Assembly (NCBI RefSeq): GCF_000732535.1
Contig: NZ_APNK01000010.1
Coordinates: forward strand, 1-64,000
DNA length: 64,000 nt
Source: Salinisphaera hydrothermalis C41B8
GTDB lineage: Bacteria > Pseudomonadota > Gammaproteobacteria > Nevskiales > Salinisphaeraceae
Direction: 5' to 3'
In this document: positions 25,760 to 34,099 of the stretch, one piece after another
Numbering within the stretch: the stretch's first letter is position 1
Layout: every line of letters begins with the position of its first letter
Notes under the pieces: generated by a model
Told to the model about the DNA's origin: nothing
The model's database searches: none
The model's input: only the letters and a program-made list of their open reading frames with translations
Position numbers and translations under genes: made by a program

Positions 25760-27604
25760 TTAGAACATCTCCGACGGCCCGACTTCCGTGTCGCCGGCAT
25801 CGTCGCTGTAGCGATTGTTGATGAAGTCGCCGGTGATCATCTGCTTGTAGGTCTTGCCCGGGCCCACCATCGGGTACACGCCGGCGTCCGGGTCGACCAT
25901 CACTTCCAGGAAGGCCGGGCCCTTGAACTCGAGGAAGGCCTCGACGGTGGCCGACAGGTCCGCCGGGTCGGTGACGCGACGAGCGAATTCGAAGCCGTCG
26001 GCTTCGGCGGCCTTGATGAAGTCCTTCTTGTGCAGCGACTTGTCGGATGCCGACAGACGCCCCTTGAAGAACAGCTTCTGCCACTGCTTCACCATGCCGT
26101 CGCCGATATTGTTGAGCACCACCACCTTGACCGGCAGGTCGTAGGTGGTCGCGGTCTCCAGCTCGCCGATGTTCATGCGGATCGAGCTGTCGCCGTCGAT
26201 ATCGATGACGAGCTTGTCGCGTCGCGCGCAGGCCGCGCCGATCGCGGCCGGCAGGCCGAAGCCCATGGTGCCCATCGAGCCCGAGGTCAGCCACAGGCGC
26301 GGCTCGCGGAAATCGAAGTACTGCGCGGCCCACATCTGGTGCTGGCCGACGCCGGTGGCGATCACCGCGCGGCCGTCGGTGTGCTTGTTGATCTCCTCGA
26401 TTACGGCATAGGGCTGGATCAGCGAGCTGTCGCGGTCGTAATTCATCGCATAGTCGCGCTTGAGCGCGGCGATGTGCTGATGCCAGTCGGACAACTCGTT
26501 GGAAAAGCCGTGCTCGCGGCCGTAGGCCAGCACACGCGCCAGACTCGGGGCGAACAGGCCGACGTGGTGCCAGTCGACCTGCTTGACCTTGTTGATCTCG
26601 GAGGCATCGGCATCGAAGTGTGCGATCGCCTTGGCTTCGGGGGCGAAATCATCCGGCCGCCCGGCCACGCGATCGTCGAAGCGCGCGCCGACCGCGATCA
26701 GGAAATCACAGTCCTCGACCGCATAGTTGGCGAACGCCGTGCCGTGCATGCCCAGCATGTGCAGCGACAGCGCGTCCGTGGTGTCGAACGCGCCAATGCC
26801 CATCAACGTCGTGACCACCGGGATACCGTAGGCCTGCGCCAGGGCCCGCAGCTCATTGGCCGAGTCCGAGTTGATCACGCCGCCGCCGGCATAGATCAGC
26901 GGGCGCTTGGATTCGCCCAGCAGGCGGAAGAACTCGGCGCATTTTTCGTCCGAGAGCTTGTTCGAGCGCAAATCGCGCATGCGCTGACGATAACCCGGTA
27001 CCGGCAGCACGCCAGACCCGGTGAACGTGCATTCGGCGTTCTGTACGTCCTTGGGCACGTCGATCACGACCGGGCCGGGGCGGCCGGAACGCGCGATCTC
27101 GAAGGCGGTGCGCACGGTCGCTTCCAGCTTGTCCGGATCGGTGACCATGAATACGTGCTTGGCGGCCGAACTCATGATGTTGGTCACCGGCGCTTCCTGG
27201 AACGCATCGGTGCCGATGGCCGCACGGGCGACCTGGCCGCAGATCAGCACCATGGGCACGGAATCGGCCATGGAATCGCGCACCGGGGTGACCGCGTTGG
27301 TCGCGCCCGGGCCGGAGGTGACCATGGCCACGCCGACCTTGCCGGAGGCGCGCGCATAACCGGCGGCCATGAAGCCCGCGCCCTGTTCGTTGGCGGGCAC
27401 GATCAGCGGCATGAGGTCGTGATGCTCTTCGTTGAAGCGGAAGATGGCATCGTAGGTCGGCAGAATGGCACCGCCGGAATAGCCGAATACCGTGTCCACG
27501 CCTTCGTCGGCCAGTACCTGAACCAGCACTTCGGCACCGGTCATGACGCGGCCGGCCAGCGGATGATGCGGACGGGTTTCGGGGGCAGTGTGCAGTTCAG
27601 TCAT
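25760..27604 (-). CDS. ilvB: Acetolactate synthase large (catalytic) subunit
   Basis: 614 aa, ThDP- and FAD-dependent; condenses pyruvate to acetolactate or with 2-oxobutyrate to acetohydroxybutyrate, the first common step to valine, leucine and isoleucine. N-terminal ThDP-Pyr domain with catalytic Glu in VPANEQGAGFMAAGYA, central FAD-binding domain, and the ThDP-binding motif from GDSSIRMNIGELETATTY to VVVLNNI. N-terminal 20 residues are extra but start with a normal ATG. It is on the opposite strand from its regulatory subunit ilvN, separated by a 146-bp divergent region, whereas ilvB and ilvN usually sit in tandem. Confidence 0.95.
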   Translation of the reverse strand: MTELHTAPETRPHHPLAGRVMTGAEVLVQVLADEGVDTVFGYSGGAILPTYDAIFRFNEEHHDLMPLIVPANEQGAGFMAAGYARASGKVGVAMVTSGPGATNAVTPVRDSMADSVPMVLICGQVARAAIGTDAFQEAPVTNIMSSAAKHVFMVTDPDKLEATVRTAFEIARSGRPGPVVIDVPKDVQNAECTFTGSGVLPVPGYRQRMRDLRSNKLSDEKCAEFFRLLGESKRPLIYAGGGVINSDSANELRALAQAYGIPVVTTLMGIGAFDTTDALSLHMLGMHGTAFANYAVEDCDFLIAVGARFDDRVAGRPDDFAPEAKAIAHFDADASEINKVKQVDWHHVGLFAPSLARVLAYGREHGFSNELSDWHQHIAALKRDYAMNYDRDSSLIQPYAVIEEINKHTDGRAVIATGVGQHQMWAAQYFDFREPRLWLTSGSMGTMGFGLPAAIGAACARRDKLVIDIDGDSSIRMNIGELETATTYDLPVKVVVLNNIGDGMVKQWQKLFFKGRLSASDKSLHKKDFIKAAEADGFEFARRVTDPADLSATVEAFLEFKGPAFLEVMVDPDAGVYPMVGPGKTYKQMITGDFINNRYSDDAGDTEVGPSEMF

Positions 27605-28313: not shown

Positions 28314-29387
<1,074 letters not shown>

Positions 29388-29431: not shown

Positions 29432-30109
29432 ATGCAGCGGAAAACGCTGTTCCATATTGTCCCCGAAGGCTGGGGTGTGCTGTTCGCGTTGGCGATCGTC
29501 TTTCTGATCGTCAATGCGGGCATCGGCGTCTGGGCGGCACTTCCGGTGCTGGTCCTCATGGCCGTGTCGGTCCTGTTTTTCCGGGACTCGCCGCGCAACG
29601 TACCGGCCGAACCGCTGTCGGTGATTGCGCCGGTGGATGGCACCGTCATCCATCGGCGTGAATGCTACGACCCGTACCTCGACCGCGAAGCGGTCAAGGT
29701 CGCGATCCGCGTGAACCCCTTCGGCGCTTATCTGCTGCGCTCCCCGGTCGAGGGCACGGTCCTGGAGTTGGCCGGCGAGACCGTCGAACGTCTCGGCGGT
29801 GTGGCGTCCATGATTCGTACCGACGAAGGCGACGAGCTGGTCATGGCGATCCGCTATGGCACGCTGCTCGGCGCACGCCCATGTCGCAACGGCTACGGCG
29901 AGCGTGTGGGGCAGGGGCGCTGTTGCGGTAATCGCCGGATGGCGCGTCGCGTCGAATTGTTCCTGCCGGTGAACTCGCGCATGGAAGTCGAGTTGGGCGA
30001 CCACGTGCGGGCCGGGGCCTGCGTACTGGCTAAACTGGTACACAAGAAAAATGGCAGCTGTCGGGCCAAGGTCGACCCCGATCGTACCCGTCTGGACGGT
30101 GCGGCCTGA
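29432..30109 (+). CDS. Phosphatidylserine-decarboxylase-like protein lacking catalytic residues
   Basis: 225 aa, two N-terminal membrane segments then the PSD fold, with the family's order kept: FFRDSPR, APVDGTV (Asp about 69 conserved), VNPFGAYLLRSPVEG, VELFLPVNSRMEVELGDHVRAG. But the catalytic His of the FDCHVNRAPV block is Tyr100, and the Gly-Ser self-cleavage site (FGSR just before the VDVYLP strand) is replaced by RMAR (about 169-172). No other Gly-Ser is placed to substitute, so a pyruvoyl group cannot be made by the usual reaction. Either a non-catalytic homologue or a changed chemistry. Its position between ilvC and pssA is that of a normal psd in many proteobacteria. Confidence 0.8.
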   Translation: MQRKTLFHIVPEGWGVLFALAIVFLIVNAGIGVWAALPVLVLMAVSVLFFRDSPRNVPAEPLSVIAPVDGTVIHRRECYDPYLDREAVKVAIRVNPFGAYLLRSPVEGTVLELAGETVERLGGVASMIRTDEGDELVMAIRYGTLLGARPCRNGYGERVGQGRCCGNRRMARRVELFLPVNSRMEVELGDHVRAGACVLAKLVHKKNGSCRAKVDPDRTRLDGAA

Positions 30110-30165: not shown

Positions 30166-30942
30166 ATGTCTGAATCCCCTCCGGAACCCGGCACTCGCCG
30201 CAAGCGCGGTATTTTCCTGTTGCCGAACCTGTTTACCACCGGCACGCTCTTCGCCGGTTTCTATTCCATCATTGCGGCGACGCAGGATCGGTTCGCGGTG
30301 GCCGGCATTGCGATTTTCGTCGCCATGCTCACGGATATGTTGGACGGGCGCGTCGCGCGGCTGACCAACGCCGAGTCCGATTTCGGCATCCAGTACGACA
30401 GCCTGGCGGATCTGGTCGCGTTCGGGCTGGCGTCTGGCCTGCTGGCCTACATGTACAGCCTGCATACGCTGGCGGCCTACAGTAATGTGGCCGGCAAGCT
30501 TGGTTGGTTGGCGGCGTTTTTCTATACCGCTGCCGCGGCGCTGCGACTCGCGCGCTTCAATATCACCCGCGGCGGTCCGGTCGAGAAGAAAGTGTTTCTC
30601 GGTCTACCGAGTCCGGCGGCCGCCGGACTACTGGTTGGCTTCGTCTGGGTCGGCGCGGATTTCGGCATCCCCGGCGGTGATCTCGTGATCCCCGTGTTCC
30701 TGCTTACGGTGGGCGCTGGCGTGCTGATGGTGTCGAACGTGCGCTACAACAGCTTCAAGGATTTCAATATCCGCGATCGCGTGCCGTTCCGCTATATCCT
30801 GTTCATGGTGATCGCCTTCGTGCTGATCATGCTGGACCCGCCGCGCGTGCTGTTCCTGGGCTTTCTGGCGTATGCCCTGTCCGGGCCGGTCATGGCGCTT
30901 CGCCGGCGGCGGCGTCTGCGCTCCGATCGCGGCAACCCGTAG
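30166..30942 (+). CDS. pssA: CDP-diacylglycerol--serine O-phosphatidyltransferase
   Basis: 258 aa, integral membrane enzyme making phosphatidylserine. The CDP-alcohol phosphatidyltransferase motif D-x2-DG-x2-AR-x8-G-x3-D-x3-D is complete (from DMLDGRVAR to YDSLAD, about 57-82). About seven membrane helices follow, ending in an Arg-rich tail. 57 bp after the PSD-like gene, likely the same transcript. It is the Bacillus/Helicobacter-like type, not the E. coli peripheral type. Confidence 0.94.
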   Translation: MSESPPEPGTRRKRGIFLLPNLFTTGTLFAGFYSIIAATQDRFAVAGIAIFVAMLTDMLDGRVARLTNAESDFGIQYDSLADLVAFGLASGLLAYMYSLHTLAAYSNVAGKLGWLAAFFYTAAAALRLARFNITRGGPVEKKVFLGLPSPAAAGLLVGFVWVGADFGIPGGDLVIPVFLLTVGAGVLMVSNVRYNSFKDFNIRDRVPFRYILFMVIAFVLIMLDPPRVLFLGFLAYALSGPVMALRRRRRLRSDRGNP

Positions 30943-31122: not shown

Positions 31123-32748
31123 ATGACTGCGGTGGCTCCGGAATCCGCGGTGCCGTCGCACAGCCGAGCCTCGGCGATCGTCGCCTGCGTGCTCGCCGGC
31201 ACGGCAGCGGCCCTGATCGTGGCACTCGCGATACCGATGGGCGTCGCGGAAGCCTGGGGCCTGGACTGGCTCCATGGTATTGGCGCGCCTGGTGTGGGCT
31301 GGGGCGATCCGTTCCGGCATGCGATCGCGGGTGCCGCGGCGGCAAACCGGGCGATGGCGGCATTGGCCACAGCCGCGGTCCTGTTCAAGCTGGTACCCGC
31401 CATCGGTGCGTTGTTGGCGCTCCGCCTGCCGGACATACTGGCCGCCGGCGCCGTCACCGGGCTTTTGGCCGCGCTGGCCGGATCGCGCGCGGCGGGTGTG
31501 TTCGCCGCGTTACTGTTCGTCCTCTCGCCCGCGCTGTGGGCGGCTGTCACCGGTTCGCCGGGGCTGATCGTCGATGGCGCCATGCTGCTGGCGCTCTATG
31601 CGGCAGTGCGGGTTTCCGACGCGCATCTCGCTGCCGGCAGGCTGGCGGTCGTCGTGCTCGCTCTGGCCGTGCTCATCGCTGACGGTGCCGGCGTTTATGC
31701 CATCGCGGTCGGTGTCGGCGCCTGGTTGCATACGGGTTTGACGCGTGGGTATTGGCGACTGTTCGCCAATCTGCGTTTAACCGTCTTTGCCGGGCTCGTT
31801 ATCGCCGGGCTTACACTGATCGACGTCATTGCGTTGCCGTCCTGGGCGCGCTGGGCGGCGCTTTTCCGGCAAATCGAGTTGGCGATCGAACGCAGCGGCC
31901 TGTCGTTGCCCGACGGGCTCATGGTGCTGGCATTGATATTGCCGAGCGTGCCCGCGCTGATTGAAACCGTACGACGGCCACGAGAGGCACCCGGCCGGCT
32001 CGCGCTCGTGCTGCTGGTCGGGGCGGTCGTATTGTCCACCGCGGCCACGACGTCCCCGCTGGCGGCAGCCTCTCTCGCGCCCGTGGGTGTGCTGTGGTGG
32101 GCGGCCCCGCTGGCGGGATCGCAACCACGCGGCCGCGCGTTCCTGTGGGCCGGGCTGTATGCGCTGCTTGGGCTAACGATCAGCGTTAGCCTGTTGCTGA
32201 CGGGGCGCGCCGAGCCGGTTGCGCATGGATCGCTGCTTTGGGCGAGTCGGGTGGCCGCGATCGTCTTCCTGCTGCTGCCAGTGGCCGTGCTGACGCTGGC
32301 TTGGCGCCGTGCCCGGTTCGCGCCGGCGGTCGGGGCGGCGCTCGCGCTCGCGAGCGTGATGGCCGCTGGGGCGCTTTGGTTGGCCGGTCCGCAGCAATTG
32401 CTCAGTCAGCGAAGCTACGATCACGAGCTGGTTGGTGAGTTGGTGCCGTTCCGGTCGCGACCCATCGCCGTGTTGGCGCCGGTCGAAGCGCCGCTATGGC
32501 GCGCCGAGCTCGGGCGTCCGGTCTTTGTGGCGCATGATCTGCCGACGCTCTGCCAATGGGCAGCCCGGCAAACCGGCAAGTCGGCGCCGCTCGCGCTCGT
32601 GCGCCCGAGCGCCACCGATCCGGTACTGGGTCTTTTTTCCGGCGCGCGGCTACTTCTGCAATCGGCCGGTACGCCGCGTACCTCGGTGATGGTGGTCGAG
32701 CTCGGACGCGGGGGCAGGCACGATTGTCGGGTCGGTCATGCGAACTGA
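31123..32748 (+). CDS. Multi-pass membrane protein of unknown function
   Basis: 541 aa with about 10-12 predicted membrane helices (about 17-430) and a soluble C-terminal portion of about 110 residues. The topology, and a helix pattern rich in Ala/Leu/Val with short loops, recalls GT-C type (ArnT/PMT-like) glycosyltransferases, but no acidic catalytic loop motif is evident to me in the first loop. Gene start at 31123 lacks a strong ribosome site. It lies 180 bp after pssA and 38 bp before the UDG-like gene, all on the plus strand. Unknown; perhaps a lipid- or polysaccharide-related transferase. Confidence 0.75.
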   Translation: MTAVAPESAVPSHSRASAIVACVLAGTAAALIVALAIPMGVAEAWGLDWLHGIGAPGVGWGDPFRHAIAGAAAANRAMAALATAAVLFKLVPAIGALLALRLPDILAAGAVTGLLAALAGSRAAGVFAALLFVLSPALWAAVTGSPGLIVDGAMLLALYAAVRVSDAHLAAGRLAVVVLALAVLIADGAGVYAIAVGVGAWLHTGLTRGYWRLFANLRLTVFAGLVIAGLTLIDVIALPSWARWAALFRQIELAIERSGLSLPDGLMVLALILPSVPALIETVRRPREAPGRLALVLLVGAVVLSTAATTSPLAAASLAPVGVLWWAAPLAGSQPRGRAFLWAGLYALLGLTISVSLLLTGRAEPVAHGSLLWASRVAAIVFLLLPVAVLTLAWRRARFAPAVGAALALASVMAAGALWLAGPQQLLSQRSYDHELVGELVPFRSRPIAVLAPVEAPLWRAELGRPVFVAHDLPTLCQWAARQTGKSAPLALVRPSATDPVLGLFSGARLLLQSAGTPRTSVMVVELGRGGRHDCRVGHAN

Positions 32749-32786
32749 GACTGGCAAAAGCCGATAAACCGTTTACGCTTTCAGCC

Positions 32787-33632
32787 ATGACATTCGATAC
32801 ACGCCGCGACGACTACCTGAGCGCACTCGGCCTGACCGACTGGCAGTATCGTGCCGACGGGCCGCTGGCCGGCCCGACGGCGTCTGCGCCCGAGCCCGAG
32901 CCCGAGCCGGAAGCGCCGCAGGCTCCGGCCGATCGGGCGCATGAGGCGCCACGAGAAGCGCCGATCATCGAAGCGGCCTCCCCGTCGGTCACCGAAATGC
33001 CCGAGCCGGCAGTCCAGGACGACGCGCCCTCAACGCCCCAGTCTGTGTCGGTCGCCGATGGGGACGACAGCCCGGCCGGTTTGGATTGGGATGAACTCGA
33101 GGCTTATCTCGCGCGCCAGGACCATCGCGGCGCGACCCGTCCGGTGTTCGGTATCGGCGCGCGTGATGCCGACGTGCTGATCGTGGGCGAGGCGCCCGGC
33201 GCGAACGAGGATGCCCAGGGCGTGCCGTTCGTCGGCCGTGCCGGCAAGCTGCTCGACCGGATGCTGGCGGCGATCGACTGTTCGCGTGCGACCAATGTGT
33301 ACATCACCAACATCTGTAAATTCCGTCCGCCGGACAATCGCGATCCGACGCCGGATGAAGTGGCAGCCGACTGGCCGATCCTGGAACGTCAGATCGATCT
33401 GATGGCGCCGCGGCTGGTGGTGGCCGTGGGGCGCGTGGCCGCCCAGACGTTGCTCGACTGTCAGACGCCGCTGGGCAAGCTGCGCGGCCAGCTGCATCGC
33501 TACCCACGCCGCGATCTCGATGTGCTGGTGACCTATCATCCGGCGTTTCTGCTGCGCAGCCCGCAACAGAAGAGCAAGGCCTGGGCCGATCTGAAGATGA
33601 TCGCCCGGCATATTCGCGCGTTCGATCAATGA
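32787..33632 (+). CDS. Uracil-DNA glycosylase family 4-like protein without Fe-S cysteines
   Basis: 281 aa. Residues 1-97 are a linker rich in Pro, Glu and Ala (PEPEPEPEAPQAPAD). The glycosylase core starts at about 103: motif A GEAPGANEDAQGVPFVGRAG (about 134-153), CKFRPPDNRDPTPDEV (177-192) and the motif-B-type YHPAFLLRSP (250-259). Family 4 enzymes hold a 4Fe-4S cluster with four Cys. Here the N-terminal pair is absent (ARQDHRGATRPVFG), the KC position is Lys178-Phe179 and the EVAAC position is Asp195. Removal of uracil from DNA is probable but the cluster is gone. Followed by rimI with a 4-bp ATGA overlap. Confidence 0.85.
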   Translation: MTFDTRRDDYLSALGLTDWQYRADGPLAGPTASAPEPEPEPEAPQAPADRAHEAPREAPIIEAASPSVTEMPEPAVQDDAPSTPQSVSVADGDDSPAGLDWDELEAYLARQDHRGATRPVFGIGARDADVLIVGEAPGANEDAQGVPFVGRAGKLLDRMLAAIDCSRATNVYITNICKFRPPDNRDPTPDEVAADWPILERQIDLMAPRLVVAVGRVAAQTLLDCQTPLGKLRGQLHRYPRRDLDVLVTYHPAFLLRSPQQKSKAWADLKMIARHIRAFDQ

Positions 33633-34099
33633 GCGCGGCGGCGGACGATCTCTGGCAGGTTCGGCGCATGCGGCCGCGCGACGTCGAGGCGGTCGTGGCG
33701 ATCGAGCGCGAGTCTTACAGCCACCCCTGGAGCGAGCGTATTTTCCGCGACTGCCTGCGGGTCGGGTATTGGGCGTGGGTGATCGATCGGACCGGTCGAA
33801 GCGTCGCCGGCTATGCGTTGGCCTCGATCGCGGTCGGCGAAGCGCATCTGCTCAATCTCTGCGTGGCGGAGCATGCCCGCGGCAGCGGTGCAGCCGCGCG
33901 GCTGCTGGAAACGGTGATCGCCCAGGCCTCGGCCGAGCGGGCCGGTGAACTGTTGCTCGAGGTCCGGCCGTCGAATCATGCCGCGCGCCGGCTCTATGCC
34001 CGCTACGGCTTCGAAACCCGCGGCCGTCGGCCGAATTATTATCCGGACAGACACGGCCGCGAGGACGCGCTGCTGTTGTCGAAGGTCATCCTGATTTGA
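33629..34099 (+). CDS. rimI: Ribosomal protein bS18 alanine N-acetyltransferase
   Basis: 156 aa GNAT acetyltransferase that acetylates the N-terminal Ala of ribosomal protein S18. Acetyl-CoA loop is VAEHARGSGAAARLLE (motif A RGxGxA form, about 81-90); EVRPSNHAARRLYARYGFE (with the Asn and Tyr of the RimI type) follows. Overlaps the UDG-like gene by ATGA and the transporter gene by 4 bp, so the three are translationally coupled. Confidence 0.88.
   Translation: MSAAADDLWQVRRMRPRDVEAVVAIERESYSHPWSERIFRDCLRVGYWAWVIDRTGRSVAGYALASIAVGEAHLLNLCVAEHARGSGAAARLLETVIAQASAERAGELLLEVRPSNHAARRLYARYGFETRGRRPNYYPDRHGREDALLLSKVILI

Follow-up and report, generated by a model that had tools for sequence, protein, structure and literature searches.

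Background

Most gammaproteobacteria have PE as a main phospholipid. How the CDP-alcohol-type phosphatidylserine synthase, PssA, is controlled is little understood. A dead enzyme kept beside its own pathway is, as a review is said to describe, a known kind of protein, with the AdoMetDC prozyme as an example; we know of no such regulator acting on the step that commits bacteria to PE synthesis. Among the titles and abstract openings listed in searches of open-access literature, none describes the family treated here. Two types of phosphatidylserine decarboxylase (PSD) are of interest here, namely the short type encoded in the ilvC-psd-pssA locus and the E. coli type, Psd-I. AdoMetDC, which also serves for comparison below, is pyruvoyl-dependent.

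The catalytic histidine of E. coli PSD is numbered His144 in the available parts of two papers (PMC9385802, PMC7952604). According to the available part of the second, His144 mutants wholly lost decarboxylation and could still be cut slowly, and the S254A protein remained uncut (PMC7952604). The available part of the first reports that Ser166 and Val167 of the enzyme contact the lipid phosphate (PMC9385802).

The altered gene and its surroundings

The window analysed is a stretch of 64,000 nucleotides from Salinisphaera hydrothermalis C41B8. A preliminary description had placed an altered PSD homologue, here called psd', between ilvC and pssA, and the open reading frames bear this out. The features of the locus are as follows.

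28365-29387, plus strand: ilvC, upstream neighbour of psd'
29432-30109, plus strand: psd', altered phosphatidylserine-decarboxylase homologue of 225 aa, uninterrupted open reading frame
29444-29590, plus strand: N-terminal hydrophobic helical hairpin, residues 5-53 (hydropathy, predicted helices)
29729-29731, plus strand: Tyr100, at the catalytic-His site (E. coli His144; alignment)
29765-29809, plus strand: shortened stretch, residues 112-126, at the position of the canonical G.F.NA loop (alignment)
29822-29836, plus strand: residues 131-135 (DEGDE), motif of the altered branch (near-invariance in altered proteins)
29897-29929, plus strand: residues 156-166 (GERVGQGRCCG), motif of the altered branch (near-invariance in altered proteins)
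29939-29947, plus strand: Met170-Ala171-Arg172, replacing the Phe-Gly-Ser self-cleavage site (alignment, fold comparison)
30166-30942, plus strand: pssA, CDP-alcohol-type phosphatidylserine synthase (TIGR00473, DG..AR(8)G...D...D motif)

Translation of 29432-30109 on the plus strand gives no internal stop. The neighbouring PssA scores 107.7 bits against the TIGR00473 cut-off of 107, with the motif DG..AR(8)G...D...D intact. The psd' protein reaches 27.4 bits with PF02666 (gathering cut-off 22) and stays below the decarboxylase equivalogs: 110.3 bits with NF003680, the best NCBIfam model (cut-off 262), 88 bits with NF003678 (cut-off 225) and 69 bits with TIGR00164 (cut-off 230). It is a distant member of PF02666. 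Hydropathy exceeds 1.6 in 19-residue windows across residues 5-53, and the predicted structure has helices at residues 11-30 and 37-49; this hairpin is likely to be membrane-associated.

An Rfam scan of the window gave no match. The ilvB gene lies on the minus strand (25760-27604), divergent from ilvH-ilvC; of 17 loci tested, ilvB was located at 15, and all 15 show this arrangement. Past pssA, the window has glycosylase- and rimI-like genes (32556-34099). Genes resembling those for uracil-DNA glycosylase, rimI and prfC immediately follow psd' at L102 and L109, two loci at which psd' has neither ilvC nor pssA nearby.

Catalytic parts lost and constraint gained

A profile of 25 rows from the order of Salinisphaera was searched against 369 genomes drawn from the gammaproteobacterial class and found matches in 125. 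Loci were read in 121 of these (all save G182, G244, G385 and G422), together with 70 named loci. A match was present at 223 of 225 loci, which gave 179 distinct proteins: 25 canonical, 153 altered and one set aside (L105), all counts being raw, with kin included. Both the His and the Gly-Ser are found in 25 proteins, Gly-Ser without the His in 18, the His without Gly-Ser in five and neither in 131.

The preliminary description had pointed to a Tyr in place of the catalytic His and to the absence of the Gly-Ser cleavage site, and the alignment agrees on both counts: psd' has Tyr100 where all 25 canonical proteins have His, it has Met170-Ala171-Arg172 at the cleavage site, and there is no Ser anywhere within residues 160-181. 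Across the altered proteins, Ser stands in the cleavage column in 20 of 153. Two further motifs, G.F.NA and QVAG..AR[RK], each occur in 24/25 canonical and in 0/153 altered proteins. The stretch corresponding to residues 112-126 comprises 26 residues in every canonical protein, 15 in the window psd' and 15-22 in 111 of the 153 altered proteins (full range 7-40). By motif, the lost G.F.NA loop probably corresponds to the PG.LF.VN loop of Psd-I, which makes the lipid-phosphate contacts. With these parts gone, psd' would have neither decarboxylase activity nor self-cleavage.

Besides these losses, the altered branch appears to have gained constraint. Near-invariant in it are E107 (150/153 altered vs. 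9/25 canonical), D131 (151/153 vs. 15/25), E132 (152/153 vs. 12/25), D134 (142/153 vs. 10/25), R158 (153/153 vs. 13/25) and G160 (151/153 vs. 4/25), along with G156 (153/153 altered) and G162 (151/153 altered). C165 is present in 117/153 altered proteins and in none of the 25 canonical ones, and Asp69 is retained in 135/153. Because new constraint was gained, the gene seems not to be merely decaying.

Predicted structure

PSD, EIIA proteins and M23 peptidases have a common barrel-sandwich type of fold. The AlphaFold2 model of psd', built from an 89-row alignment, has a mean pLDDT of 91.8 and a pTM of 0.85 and consists of an uncut beta body preceded by the helical hairpin at the N terminus. With VIA-align, the best PDB fold matches of this body are EIIA-Glc proteins (Z 10.9-13.3), and this likeness shows fold, not function. 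E. coli PSD comes among the M23 peptidases with Z of 6.5-7.6, values that are possibly low because the PSD chains in the PDB are already cut. Among the best 50 Foldseek matches listed there was no PSD, and a PDB sequence search with the single psd' protein returned one chance match and no PSD.

The fold alignment ends with model residue 170 on E. coli residue 252 in each of the five PSD entries listed (7cnx, 7cnz, 7cnw, 7cny and 6l06); the tool reports end points only, and the PSD chains, being cut, end nearby. On the model, Ala171 would correspond to E. coli Gly253 and Arg172 to Ser254, a placement in agreement with the sequence alignment. An alternative Ser at the cleavage position was considered and rejected, given this end point and the lack of Ser at 160-181.

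Conservation in the order and history of the change

The related set comprised 61 genomes of the genus Salinisphaera and its order, the window's own included. psd' occurs in 27 of them. Besides the window's genome, 12 of 13 Salinisphaera genomes carry it, and so do members of four families within the order. Conservation of the altered form among relatives, proposed earlier as a check, was found at all 27 orthologous loci: Tyr occupies the His column in 27/27, Gly-Ser is present in 0/27, and every frame is open. In the order alignment (25 of the 27 rows, with near-copies L009 and L011 omitted), no row departs from Tyr100, Arg168 or Arg169, and the position once occupied by Ser is Arg in 22, Leu in two and Gln in one. 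An assembly frameshift at 29850-29990 was rejected, since other assemblies have the identical open frame and altered site, down to 37% identity.

The dN/dS of psd' to its nearest relative is 0.09. The median is 0.23 (55 pairs), compared with 0.18 for pssA and 0.17 for ilvC, as obtained from stop-to-stop frames of 11 genomes, which add noise. The earlier judgement that psd' is no obvious pseudogene gains support from the dN/dS of 0.09, the order-wide conservation and the near-invariant residues of its own. Catalytic residues are lost, and the frame and other residues are conserved, as in a pseudoenzyme under selection. Considering the conservation, the near-invariant residues and the Psd-I-type match elsewhere (below), psd' is best read as a pseudoenzyme of long standing that selection maintains, and not as a gene in decay; that it is a conserved pseudoenzyme we consider close to certain.

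A quick tree was made from 140 rows (<72% identity). The canonical proteins fall in one clade (SH-aLRT 99), joined there by L105 with its Tyr. Of the remaining 121 rows, 120 share one branch (SH-aLRT 85), and L149 lies outside both groups. The tree requires four state changes for the His and 13 for the Ser, suggesting that the His was lost early, and far more widely than in the genus Salinisphaera, and the Ser repeatedly and separately; in the order of Salinisphaera, Gly-Ser apparently became Ala-Arg or similar.

Several single records deserve mention. L105, of the canonical clade, has Tyr for the His, retains Gly-Ser and comes from a genome with a Psd-I-type match (1.8e-56); judged by its place in the tree, it looks like a separate His loss, a second and younger start of the same change. 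L125, L127 and L128 retain the His, have Ser-Gly or Ala-Gly for Gly-Ser, and come with a Psd-I-type match elsewhere. The records labelled 'Endozoicomonas sp. G2_2' (L066), 'Klebsiella pneumoniae' MAG (L127) and 'Nitrospira' MAG (L093) each carry a gammaproteobacterial ilvC-psd-pssA stretch, and their labels seem wrong; L066 may belong to the same genus as the window.

Psd-I elsewhere in the genome

It had been suggested that the true Psd lies elsewhere, and the proposed search for a second psd found one. The window's own genome encodes three further PF02666 proteins, of which one is of Psd-I type, with YHRVH and LGSS (C2:90004-90666). Another (L003, C8:57819-58292), short and Psd-like, carries FWDMHV and LGST and has a galE-like gene as its neighbour; matches of similar score occur in G001, G002, G004, G007, G011 and G012 of the same genus, the motif having been read in L003, L032 and L033. 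The third (L002, C1:352236-352838) is longer, ends in a C-terminal FGGSD and adjoins an amidase-like frame, with similar-scoring matches in G004 and G013.

In the class, all 19 genomes with the canonical gene have a single PF02666 match, and 96 of the 102 with the altered gene have a strong Psd-I-type match; the call is score-based, at <1e-48, beyond the best canonical locus gene (4.1e-47). Of 44 Psd-I proteins read, 43 have [LM]GS[ST]; the frame was picked by the His motif, so the His is no independent test. Among the 27 related genomes with psd', the PF02666 match is at 2e-52 or better in 26 and at 1.1e-39 in one. Four further canonical genomes were considered: three have a single match, and that of L089 has a second match of the longer kind, a mild exception. 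In general, the presence of Psd-I is likely to have been the trigger of the change from enzyme to pseudoenzyme.

Six altered genomes have no match below 1e-48. In G236 a Psd-I-like match lies in two pieces; in the fragmented drafts G146, G249, G275, G299 and G373 no Psd-I was found, also with a Psd-I query, and psd' and pssA are present in all five (L216, L148, L174, L163 and L172, respectively). A real absence of Psd-I in these drafts is possible, because G275 and G373 share one genus and G269, of the genus of G146, lacks any PF02666 match.

What psd' may do beside PssA

Our preferred reading, to which we give an even chance as a whole, is that a conserved pseudoenzyme works as an accessory of PssA; the accessory or regulatory part, taken by itself, falls a little short of that. 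psd' would have originated from the short-type Psd of the ilvC-psd-pssA locus by loss of the catalytic parts, a separate Psd-I-type enzyme making PE in such genomes. Retaining the membrane hairpin and the uncut barrel-sandwich body, the protein would be located at the membrane beside PssA, where it may bind PS, CDP-DAG or PssA itself, and either tune PS synthesis or hand PS to the distant Psd-I. Rather more doubtful is the broader proposal that the dead Psd family, throughout the gammaproteobacteria, forms an EIIA-like regulatory membrane subunit of PssA wherever Psd-I took over decarboxylation.

At the altered loci, pssA adjoins psd' in 98/102 and ilvC in 96/102. This linkage goes back to the canonical arrangement and is alone no proof of a functional link. 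Evolutionary distances say somewhat more. Over 96 loci, the partial correlation of psd' with pssA, ilvC being fixed, is 0.50 (bootstrap 0.40-0.60), and that with ilvC is 0.08; the corresponding psd-pssA value for 15 canonical loci is 0.80. When Psd-I is included as well (44 genomes), the partial correlation of psd' with pssA, ilvC and Psd-I being fixed, is 0.32 (Mantel p 0.001), that with Psd-I is 0.14 (p 0.058) and that with ilvC is -0.02; the correlation with pssA exceeds that with Psd-I in only 90% of bootstraps. The distances would thus lend the psd'-PssA tie modest support; it is modest because pssA distances also track Psd-I (0.37) and ilvC (0.29), and pssA may simply be the best tracker of the species tree.

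TIGR00473 scores above its cut-off in 329/369 class genomes and the psd'/psd profile matches in 125; the many genomes that have a CDP-alcohol-type PssA and no psd' count against the PssA reading. So do nine loci with psd' and neither ilvC nor pssA nearby (in one, G226, pssA is on a different contig). The confinement of psd' to genomes with such a PssA is uninformative, as 329/369 have one. An apparent psd'-pssA fusion at L157, L172 and L174 was rejected, the long frames being a GC-rich open frame that runs upstream.

The nine detached loci fit a different idea, namely that psd' acts in lipid binding, in transport or as a new enzyme, independently of PssA and Psd-I and via E107, D131, E132, D134, R158 and C165. 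The new near-invariant polar residues also speak for it, as do the EIIA-Glc proteins, which the uncut body resembles most in fold (Z 12.5-13.3); nevertheless, similarity of fold is no indication of function and pssA stands alongside in 98/102 altered loci, so that we regard it as unlikely.

Slightly less probable still is a prozyme-like partnership, by analogy with trypanosomes, in which the dead short Psd would bind Psd-I and control its maturation or activity. Both are PF02666 proteins, most altered genomes (96/102) have the Psd-I-type match, and a dead paralogue activates AdoMetDC in trypanosomes, according to the available part of the source (PMC5201418). However, psd' tracks Psd-I weakly (0.14, p 0.058) as against 0.32 for pssA, Psd-I without psd' is common (PF02666 in 342/369 genomes, the psd'/psd profile in 125), and in five genomes psd' occurs where no Psd-I was found.

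That psd' retains decarboxylase activity through other catalytic residues is highly improbable. Asp69 persists in 135/153 altered proteins, Ser in 20/153, and E. coli His144 mutants are slowly cut; yet the same mutants are inactive (both in the available part of PMC7952604), four separate losses occur together, the genus Salinisphaera has Arg at the cofactor Ser, and Psd-I is present in these genomes. A decaying pseudogene, suggested by the missing catalytic residues and a median dN/dS (0.23) somewhat above that of pssA (0.18) and ilvC (0.17), can be practically dismissed in view of the open frame at 27 related loci, purifying selection and new invariant residues.

On the accessory reading, a metabolic enzyme would have come to assist or regulate the synthesis of membrane lipids, and a conserved pseudoenzyme adjoining pssA is a concrete candidate for the control of PssA. 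The family also illustrates with unusual clarity how an enzyme becomes a pseudoenzyme in nature, with a Psd-I-type match in 96/102 altered and 0/19 canonical genomes. Homology-based annotation is expected to label psd' proteins decarboxylases, putting the wrong enzyme into metabolic reconstructions.

Comparison with known systems

The AdoMetDC prozyme resembles psd' as a dead decarboxylase paralogue beside an active one, as far as the available part of the source goes (PMC5201418); it belongs to another protein family, and its partner and activation have been demonstrated, whereas any partner of psd' is putative. EIIA-Glc resembles the psd' body (residues 61-204) in fold, with Z of 12.7 and rmsd of 3.1 over 127 residues for 1f3g, and Z of 13.3 and rmsd of 2.9 for 3our_B, at about 20% identity in each case. 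Unlike EIIA-Glc, psd' has a membrane hairpin, and it scores 13.2 bits with PF00358, below the cut-off of 27.2. Psd-I of the E. coli type (6l06, 7cnx) shares the superfamily, the psd' model aligning with it over 115 residues at an rmsd of 2.7 and Z of 7.6 (Z <8 alone is weak). It differs in having YHR.H and a cleavage site of the LGST type, and its gene lies elsewhere in these genomes.

Closest to psd' is the short-type Psd (NF003680 PRK05305.1-5, NF003678, TIGR00164), which has the same ilvC and pssA flanks and N-terminal hairpin, can be aligned throughout and shares the landmarks FRDP.R, P.DG and R..P..G. Two canonical locus members tested with NF003680 score 317 and 325 bits (cut-off 262), in contrast to 110 for psd'. 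Unlike these enzymes, psd' is without the His, the Gly-Ser, the G.F.NA loop and QVAG..AR[RK], and has motifs of its own, T-D-E-x-D and G-E-R-x-G-Q-G.
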